From Oligoflexia bacterium (GTDB taxonomy: Bacteria; Bdellovibrionota; Bdellovibrionia; Bdellovibrionales; Bdellovibrionaceae), in NCBI GenBank assembly GCA_016861345.1, contig BOLD01000011.1, forward strand, positions 51,511-115,510: a stretch of DNA of 64,000 nucleotides. Reading direction: 5' to 3'. Under the pieces are notes generated by a model. That model had not been told where the DNA came from and searched no databases. It saw nothing but the letters and a program-made list of their open reading frames with translations. A program made the position numbers and the translations under genes. Every line of letters starts with the position of its first letter. Position 1 is the stretch's first letter. Of this stretch, positions 433 through 2,470 are shown piece after piece.

Positions 433-497
433 AAAGGGGCATCGGTTAAGTCTGAGAAAAACTTAAATTATAGACATAATAGATAAAGGTCGAGATA

Positions 498-1577
498 TCA
501 GTTTGCTACAGTCATGGCTGAAACACATCTTGTAAATGCACTTTGGGATATGAACGGTATTGATGTGGCTCGGGAGAGAGTTTTTGTTGAAGAATTGTAA
601 GAAAATTTTTCGATGTTATTGTAACTGGAAATGGCGTTTGCAACATAAACAGAACCTGTTGCCGTGTCCTCAACCATTCTGGAGGGGCCCATGACCACTG
701 CGAAATTGTTATAAGCGGCAGTAGCATTGGAAATAGTATTTAAGTTAGCATCCACATCATATGAATAGATCAGGTTACTCGTACTTGTCGTGCTTCCATA
801 AGCAATGAGTAAATGTCCAGATGAGTGTAGAAGGGCAGAGGTTGGTAATGCTGTTGTGGCTGGAGCAGCTACAGTGGTTAGACAATCAGCAGTGGATGCG
901 TAGCCTGATGCTGATATCAAAACGGTTTTATTATTCGGTGTTGCTGCCGCGTGGGTATAGAGGATCTTTCCATCGCCGATTGTTGTAAGGGATGAGACTA
1001 ATGTATTTGTTGTAGCACAGGTTGACCCTGGGGCATTGACAAAGGGGCTTGCTCCTGACGTAACTCTCGATTTGGCCGAGTTAAATTTTTCAATGGCAGA
1101 TGATTTGCTGACGAGAATACTTCCATCTCCGAGAAGAGCCATATCTCTTCCAACAGCACTAAGCGCTGTTGAGTTGGTGATATAGGACGTGTATCCGGAG
1201 CCATCCTTGTTCACAATATCAATTCTGCGTCCACCTGCATTTTCAACGAGAACGAGTACGCGATTGTCGTCAAAATTCTGAATTGCCACTGGCATATCTC
1301 CAGGAGATGCTGTGTTGTAATCCATGACAATACTATCCATAGATCCGGTATCAATATTGTATCGAACTATCGTTCCAATTCCAGTTGATGTTGTTACACC
1401 TCCGCCGTAGCAGGATCCGCTAGCAACGTAGAGAAACTTCTGGTCAACAGGGGGTGAGCTTGGTGTAGATGGAGCCGTTGATGCCGAGTCAGTCGAGCTT
1501 GCGGACTTTTTCTTATCGCAGGCAGATAGAACCATGACAAAAGACAATATCAGTATCGTAAATAAACTGGTTTTCAT
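498..1577 (-). CDS. Secreted lipoprotein, probably beta-propeller-like, unknown function
   Basis: A 359-residue exported lipoprotein. Residues 1-19 form a signal peptide and VLSAC gives a lipobox with lipidated Cys20. Asp21 at position +2 would mean inner-membrane retention under the enterobacterial Lol rule, which may not hold here. A low-complexity Ser/Thr/Pro linker (about 25-45) follows. The rest is rich in repeated short strands (LYVASG, RVLVLV, GSILVS, GKILYTH, GSVYVAN), suggesting a WD40/NHL-like propeller, with scattered Cys that may form disulfides. Start is fixed by a strong GAGGAGG ribosome site a few bases upstream. It diverges from the beta-barrel gene at 1727 across a shared promoter region with sigma-28-like elements. 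No function recognised. Confidence 0.85.
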   Translation of the reverse strand: MKTSLFTILILSFVMVLSACDKKKSASSTDSASTAPSTPSSPPVDQKFLYVASGSCYGGGVTTSTGIGTIVRYNIDTGSMDSIVMDYNTASPGDMPVAIQNFDDNRVLVLVENAGGRRIDIVNKDGSGYTSYITNSTALSAVGRDMALLGDGSILVSKSSAIEKFNSAKSRVTSGASPFVNAPGSTCATTNTLVSSLTTIGDGKILYTHAAATPNNKTVLISASGYASTADCLTTVAAPATTALPTSALLHSSGHLLIAYGSTTSTSNLIYSYDVDANLNTISNATAAYNNFAVVMGPSRMVEDTATGSVYVANAISSYNNIEKFSYNSSTKTLSRATSIPFISQSAFTRCVSAMTVAN

Positions 1578-1605: not shown

Positions 1606-1632
1606 TATTCGGCATTTCTTTGCCAAATCTTA
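1606..1632 (-). promoter_or_regulatory. Sigma-28 (FliA)-like promoter for the lipoprotein gene
   Basis: On the minus strand TAAGATTT (1625-1632), an 11-base spacer and GCCGAATA (1606-1613) match the FliA consensus TAAAGTTT-N11-GCCGATAA at 6/8 in each half. Predicted transcription would begin about 20 bases before the ATG at 1577, leaving room for the GAGGAGG ribosome site. Read by eye; no scoring matrix was run. Confidence 0.5.
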
Positions 1633-1657
1633 AGTTTTTTTGAAATAATCTTAAGTT
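1626..1657. repeat. Tandem direct repeat AATCTTAAGTT, 21-base period
   Basis: The 11-mer AATCTTAAGTT occurs at 1626-1636 and again at 1647-1657, 21 bases apart (two helical turns), between two divergent genes. Each copy contains the palindrome CTTAAG. The copies overlap the -35 parts of the two divergent sigma-28-like promoters, so the repetition may simply reflect two promoter elements, or a pair of activator sites on one face of the helix. Confidence 0.6.
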
Positions 1658-1678
1658 ATTCTTATCCTTTTCCGATAT
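1652..1678 (+). promoter_or_regulatory. Sigma-28 (FliA)-like promoter for the beta-barrel gene
   Basis: TAAGTTAT (1652-1659), an 11-base spacer and TCCGATAT (1671-1678) match TAAAGTTT-N11-GCCGATAA at 5/8 and 6/8. It would start a transcript about 40 bases before the ATG at 1727. It is weaker alone, but it faces a similar element of the same type driving the opposite gene. Confidence 0.42.
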
Positions 1679-1726
1679 TAATGATCAGAACTGAGACAGT
1701 TAGTGGAGTAATTTGAGAAGTGTCTT

Positions 1727-2362
1727 ATGTTGATATCATTTTGTGTGGGTCTTTATTTGAGATTCTCTATCCTTGTTGTGATGGGGTTGTTTCCGGTCTA
1801 TTTACAGGCTGGGGTCTCGGATGTTTTTACTAAGGCAAAATACAGATTCGCTCTTGATTATTACCAATTTAATTCTGACGCGATCTATGGGTTGGGCTCG
1901 AGCACCATTGGCTACGGAGGATTAATTGGTCTTCAGTACGGCACTGGTCGGTTTCGTGGAGCTCTCGATTTGACAGGGATTTATGTCTCTGGTGTTGAAC
2001 AGTTTCAAGACGGGTCCGTTCAGAGGAAGCTTGATGTGAATGGCTTATTGTTGGGAATAGCTCCAGGTTTTTATTTGGATCTGCTTGGAAGTACAAATTC
2101 CAAGGCTACCTTAACCTTTTCAGCTAATGGAGTGGCAGAGTACACTTATTTAAAGCTTCCGGTCGATGCGACTCTGACAAATATTGCTCAAACGGATAAT
2201 GGAGTTTTTGTTGGCTACAGTGTGGGTCTGGGGCTTCAGTGGAAGATCTTTTCTAAACCCACAGTGATTGAGGCTCGGTACCGTTCATTGACAGGAAAAA
2301 TATTTGAGCGGTCAGATTATTCGACCTCTGGTCTAGGGGTTCGATTTGGAGTTCAGTATTAA
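1727..2362 (+). CDS. Predicted outer-membrane beta-barrel protein
   Basis: A 211-residue protein with an N-terminal export signal (hydrophobic core about residues 8-28, likely cleavage after LQA). The mature part alternates hydrophobic and polar residues in Gly/Tyr-rich strands (SSTIGYGGLIGLQYG, GVFVGYSVGLGLQW) and ends RFGVQY, a terminal aromatic residue typical of BAM-inserted barrels. The size fits an 8-stranded OmpA/OmpW-like barrel. GAGAAG at 1715-1720 serves as ribosome site. It is transcribed away from the lipoprotein gene at 498-1577; both carry sigma-28-like promoter elements. No specific family recognised, and a porin role is not claimed. Confidence 0.75.
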   Translation: MLISFCVGLYLRFSILVVMGLFPVYLQAGVSDVFTKAKYRFALDYYQFNSDAIYGLGSSTIGYGGLIGLQYGTGRFRGALDLTGIYVSGVEQFQDGSVQRKLDVNGLLLGIAPGFYLDLLGSTNSKATLTFSANGVAEYTYLKLPVDATLTNIAQTDNGVFVGYSVGLGLQWKIFSKPTVIEARYRSLTGKIFERSDYSTSGLGVRFGVQY

Positions 2363-2443: not shown

Positions 2444-2470
2444 TCAAGTTGGGACGATAATAACCGATAA
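2444..2470 (+). promoter_or_regulatory. Sigma-28 (FliA)-like promoter ahead of the small membrane protein
   Basis: TCAAGTTG (2444-2451), 11 bases, then ACCGATAA (2463-2470) match the FliA consensus at 6/8 and 7/8. The -10 box ends only six bases before the ATG at 2477, so a transcript from here would be essentially leaderless, and AAGGA (the apparent ribosome site) overlaps the -10 box. Either the mRNA is leaderless or the match is fortuitous. Confidence 0.4.

Follow-up and report, generated by a model that had tools for sequence, protein, structure and literature searches.

The gap between a lipoprotein gene and a predicted beta-barrel gene near the start of the window (the whole 64,000-nucleotide stretch analysed here) very probably constitutes, judging from its sequence, a bidirectional FliA-type promoter pair that would drive both genes in the free-swimming phase. 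Two outward-facing elements with the same 16-base spacer lie back to back in this gap, sites of the same build recur before relatives of both genes, and the genome encodes FliA. The paired elements are confirmed and conserved, and a promoter of this sort is ordinary in kind; a more surprising lead is that similar sites in this order of bacteria often lie directly against the start codon. The features of the region are as follows.

498..1577 (-): lipoprotein gene, 359 aa, lipobox-like Cys20, predicted beta-propeller (mean pLDDT 85)
1592-1584 (-): likely Shine-Dalgarno sequence GAGGAGGGC of the lipoprotein gene
1606..1633 (-): putative FliA-type promoter of the lipoprotein gene; -35 TTAAG 1633-1629, 16-base spacer, -10 CCGAAT(A) 1612-1606
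1626..1660 (no strand): two copies of AATCTTAAGTTNTT (1626-1639 and 1647-1660), one -35 inside each
1634..1650 (no strand): 17-bp A/T-rich stretch separating both -35 elements, upstream region common to both promoters
1651..1677 (+): putative FliA-type promoter of the barrel gene; -35 TTAAG 1651-1655, 16-base spacer, -10 CCGATA 1672-1677
1715-1720 (+): weak Shine-Dalgarno-like GAGAAG of the barrel gene
1727..2362 (+): predicted 8-stranded outer-membrane beta-barrel, 211 aa, signal-like N terminus (mean pLDDT 85)

Two outward-facing elements in one gap

An earlier note had described two elements of FliA architecture facing outward from this gap with exact 11-base spacers, and both are found: TAAGATTT-N11-GCCGAATA runs from 1632 down to 1606 on the minus strand, towards the lipoprotein ATG at 1577 (-), and TAAGTTAT-N11-TCCGATAT occupies 1652-1678 on the plus strand, towards the barrel ATG at 1727 (+), the gap itself spanning 1578-1726. 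Against the E. coli octamers the fit is mediocre (6+6 of 16 on the minus and 5+6 of 16 on the plus side, by manual count). Measured against the Bdellovibrio consensus TTAAG-N16-CCGATA, the plus site agrees at 11/11 positions and the minus site at 9/11, each with the 16-base spacer of a Bdellovibrio-type FliA promoter. The -10 elements end 29 nt (minus) and 49 nt (plus) before the ATG, which bears out the sensible leader lengths proposed, and Shine-Dalgarno-like sequence is present on either side, weak on the plus side; transcription is predicted to start near 1600 (-) for the lipoprotein and near 1684-1686 (+) for the barrel. The further observation that the -35 regions are the two copies of a repeat also holds, these being 14-mers with 93% identity set 21 bp apart, and since their CTTAAG is palindromic, TTAAG can be read on either strand.

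The two flanking products are predicted to be, as had been proposed, a lipoprotein and a beta-barrel. The AlphaFold2 model of the lipoprotein is rich in beta strands, and beta-propellers head its list of Foldseek hits; the model of the barrel has eight strands after a long N-terminal helix, with structural hits that include EstA, NspA, Ail, OmpA, OmpX and OmpW. For either protein, no Pfam or NCBIfam family scored above cut-off.

In the mechanism that we propose, RNA polymerase carrying FliA would engage each of the two -35/-10 pairs and read outward from the gap. The -35 elements are separated by 17 bp and sit one in each copy of the direct repeat, so the two polymerases would share the A/T-rich stretch upstream, which may play an UP-like role. 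In B. bacteriovorus FliA is active in the attack phase, when the cells are motile; under such conditions the products of both genes, by prediction a secreted beta-propeller lipoprotein and a small outer-membrane barrel, would appear at the same time, possibly with a joint function at the surface.

The neighbourhood holds two further FliA-like sites. At 440-466 (-), TTAAG-N16-CCGATG (10/11) stops 7 nt short of the start codon (ATG 432) of a CorA-like gene, whose mRNA is predicted from this spacing to be leaderless; at 2444-2469 (+), TCAAG-N15-CCGATA has the same 7-nt distance to the start codon (ATG 2477) of a 75-aa ORF resembling a membrane protein. Together with the pair, this places four FliA-like sites before four consecutive starts within about 2 kb.

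Recurrence before related genes and the level of chance

The gene for FliA lies at C6:193661-194332 (TIGR02479, 278 bits, over cut-off), and FliA is over cut-off in 37/39 genomes, this one included; the two without it, G026 and G037, are 83% and 86% complete. The FliA stretch LRVTESRVSQLHAQA is identical in 8/8 aligned sequences, from this genome and seven relatives. A second sigma-factor-like match (G000 C6:195083-195694, -; 78 bits, below the FliA cut-off) lies on the other strand, some 750 bp past fliA, and several relatives have a similar neighbour.

Relatives of the lipoprotein were found by a genome search in 17/39 genomes, including its own, and at 25 loci by a contig search, their titles naming Bdellovibrio relatives and one Oligoflexia; an alignment of 17 lipoproteins (A1) was too diverse for scanning, and a closer one (A2) worked. 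We scored 40 loci, including the window, over the 120 nt upstream of the start, as the number of matches out of 11 to TTAAG-N16-CCGATA. Loci not counted were L043, which is the window itself, L062 and a C50 fragment from G020, along with L077, L081, L086 and L087, duplicates of L044, L056, L060 and L050. The loci averaged 8.5, with 20/40 at 9 or more, 35/40 at 8 or more and 5/40 at 7 or less, counts to be read with the limit that close kin and paralogs make the loci non-independent; three start codons were set by hand, and automatic starts (150 nt) likewise give 20/40. Dinucleotide shuffles averaged 6.88 (2.6% at 9 or more, 15.8% at 8 or more), 108 control ORFs from 21 of the loci averaged 6.75 (4/108 at 9 or more), and the reverse strand of the 40 stretches averaged 7.2, its 5/40 at 9 or more being in part the barrel-facing sites. 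The -10 variant CCGAAT recurs in six lipoprotein loci (L048, L050, L060, L061, L071 and the window).

Within the genus Bdellovibrio the agreement is closer still. The gene is present in 21/24 genomes, at 22 loci, and 21/22 score at least 9; in 19 of the 21 the site lies 29-33 nt upstream of the ATG, and an AGGAG-like sequence follows most sites. The exception, L105, has a misplaced start. The genomes compared include G006, presumably B. bacteriovorus strain Tiberius, and G039, which we take to be B. bacteriovorus HD100. The ortholog in G039 (352342-353466, -) carries a FliA-type site, as here, and adjoins a subtilase gene that is probably Bd0376, so the lipoprotein may be Bd0377. Bd0376 is an S8 protease according to the text available of PMC11003981; a literature search by locus tag returned no text on the lipoprotein and, among the Bd037x tags, only Bd0376. 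A gene for a PilZ-domain protein (L090 2840-3709, -) with its own FliA-like site also adjoins the lipoprotein gene in G039.

On the barrel side 12 genes were scored; a single-protein contig search with the barrel found no relative. Half of them (6/12) reach at least 9, compared with 2.1% of shuffles, and the other 6/12 stay at 8 or below. Divergent lipoprotein-barrel neighbours recur in G013, G020, G010, L075, L079, L084 and G060; the barrel in G004 faces a more distant lipoprotein, linked to the family by hhalign (probability 96.5%), and in G021 the two genes stand in tandem. A PilZ-domain protein gene (L039 1902-2624, -) adjoins the barrel in G004. Sites of at least 8 point in both directions in G013, G020 and G010. 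The G039 barrel (L231) scores 7 and lies far from the lipoprotein gene.

The footprinting of 40 lipoprotein, 22 genus-Bdellovibrio and 12 barrel loci thus upholds the FliA reading, and it also bears on whether both sides are promoters. A FliA promoter might serve only one side, with the lipoprotein side conserved and the barrel expressed from another promoter, or the reverse: conservation on the lipoprotein side extends over far more loci, and the barrel direction in the divergent pairs L079 and L084 scores only 6, with no site at 8. We consider this unlikely, given that the exact match in the window is on the barrel side and that the six barrel genes at 9 or more include that of G057, although its lipoprotein gene sits on another contig. 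It is very unlikely that the repeats centred on CTTAAG are instead operators of a transcription factor for both genes, the promoters being something else. Two near-identical 14-mers with a palindromic core, 21 bp or two helical turns apart, would suit an operator; against this, each copy falls exactly at a -35, 16 bases from CCGA, and the unit that recurs across orthologs is the -35/-10 pair, its -35 reading TTAAG, TCAAG or TAAAG.

How often such sites arise by chance was assessed in 464 kb of the same genome, made up of the window and 20 further stretches of 20 kb each. Nowhere else in the 64-kb window, on either strand, is the consensus matched exactly as it is at the plus site, which is also one of two exact matches found within 120 nt of 397 called gene starts in the sample. 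Both starts of the pair are among the 17/397 that score at least 9, and of 56 divergent gaps this is the only one with at least 9 on both sides, so that the FliA reading stands out from background. The minus site by itself is weak, with a -10 two bases off consensus and a score also reached in 2.6% of shuffles and by 4/108 control ORFs; not significant alone, it appears convincing only through its conservation. At 10 or more we counted 11 sites, where permuted words gave 7.6 (sd 4.7). Pairs of such a site with an ATG no more than 70 nt away also numbered 11, compared with 2.0 for permuted words (sd 1.9, highest 7), and a single site could be paired with more than one ATG; a 400-kb sample of G039 gave 16 such pairs compared with 1.4 (highest 6). 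Once the threshold drops to 9, the 464-kb sample shows no clear excess over permuted words, neither of sites (157 versus 148, sd 71) nor of site-ATG pairs (59 versus 40, sd 20), and raw counts from this genome therefore prove nothing. The pattern TAAG-N{6,26}-CCGATA was rejected as too loose, its 66 matches in this genome showing no excess over 96 for the reversed pattern; the spacer is 16 bases in 8/66, and in one more case in C10, entered under a nearer TAAG.

That ordinary sigma-70 promoters serve the gap, the FliA-like words being chance products of A/T-rich DNA, is very unlikely: the words do lack a genome-wide excess and the plus strand does offer TTGCCA-18-AATAAT (1620-1649) and TTGAAA-17-TATCCT (1640-1668), yet two matches are close to the number in shuffled sequence (1.1, sd 1.0), the minus strand yielded no such match, and chance does not explain the recurrence of FliA sites in orthologs.

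Promoter-like sites abutting the start codon

The bidirectional FliA-type pair in the window is of the leadered form, unlike that of 13/40 lipoprotein loci in which a mere 7-11 nt separate the -10 (CCGANN) from the start codon (L047, L052, L054, L058, L059, L060, L063, L064, L065, L066, L073, L080 and L082, the starts of L047 and L060 being hand-set). In E. coli aer transcription starts 6 bp after the -10 octamer (PMC2859248, text as available), and the CGATWT element of C. jejuni is found 6-8 nt upstream of the start (PMC3847290, likewise). With these spacings, leaders of the abutting form would be about 0-5 nt long.

We scanned 20 genomes of the order, this one included, for TAAG-N16-CCGATA-N{0,30}-ATG and obtained 94 matches against 30 for the reversed pattern. 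The ATG follows CCGATA by 6-9 nt in 39/94, where an even spread would give 12, and by exactly 8 nt in 18; for this distance alone the count is 39 against 3 in the reversed control. With AAAG in place of TAAG there are 121 matches against 32, 30/121 at 6-9 nt (15.6 expected). A control with an 11-base spacer gives 22 matches against 33 and is imperfect, since 8/22 of them also have the ATG at 6-9 nt (2.8 expected), one of these eight being the same site as an N16 match. Some excess therefore persists without the right spacer, perhaps reflecting true promoters with a poor -35. Among the N16 matches at 6-9 nt, 30/39 were fetched and 29 read, and 21/29 open a frame of at least 60 codons, compared with 5/26 N11 readings at any distance, four of those five at 7-8 nt. 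Of 21 such proteins with at least 100 residues, 20 were scanned, and nine have Pfam matches, including a chemotaxis receptor, FliL, a subtilase and two PilZ proteins, kinds of gene that resemble those reported for the B. bacteriovorus attack phase.

FliA-type promoters in this order thus seem often to abut the start codon, which would predict leaderless mRNAs. A literature search for Bdellovibrio and leaderless found no paper dealing with the pattern, as far as titles and the beginnings of abstracts tell, and the word 'leaderless' is absent from the main text of PMC3627812. We lean towards the view that leaderless mRNAs make up a large class of FliA transcripts across the Bdellovibrio order and that the lipoprotein orthologs have switched between leaderless and leadered forms. 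The position of the promoter would make the first transcribed base coincide with the ATG or fall no more than one or two bases from it, and attack-phase proteins would then be translated without Shine-Dalgarno sites; if true, this would mean that in predatory bacteria the flagellar sigma factor is linked to another mode of translation.

Comparison with known systems

The closest parallel is B. bacteriovorus HD100, for which a start-site map has been published (Karunker et al. 2013, PMC3627812). In the text available of that study, TTAAG-N16-CCGATA is found in 92/140 attack-phase promoters, with the same -35, spacer and -10 as here; it precedes flagellar genes and also others, among them genes for cell-surface proteins and proteases. 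The same text names neither the lipoprotein nor the barrel gene. Reporters in B. bacteriovorus agree, promoters with the FliA motif tending to be stronger in attack phase (PMC12622784, text as available). The pair described here differs in being divergent and back to back, and in belonging to another genus of the family. By analogy with the published map we infer dependence on FliA, expression in the attack phase and a possible role in predation; the unnamed lipoprotein family, present in many Bdellovibrio relatives, and its barrel partner would then join the shortlist of likely attack-phase surface proteins.

With the enterobacterial sigma-28 promoters (TAAAGTTT-N11-GCCGATAA; PMC2859248, in the text available) the pair has in common the two-element layout and the CCGA core, whereas its -35 is TTAAG in the Bdellovibrio register and its genes are not flagellar. 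As for the products, the Bacteroides surface lipoproteins BtuG1 and XusB (Foldseek ranks 34 and 49) have the beta-propeller fold predicted here, with a TM-score of about 0.5 and an identity of about 10%; compared with those systems, the barrel here is small, with eight predicted strands.
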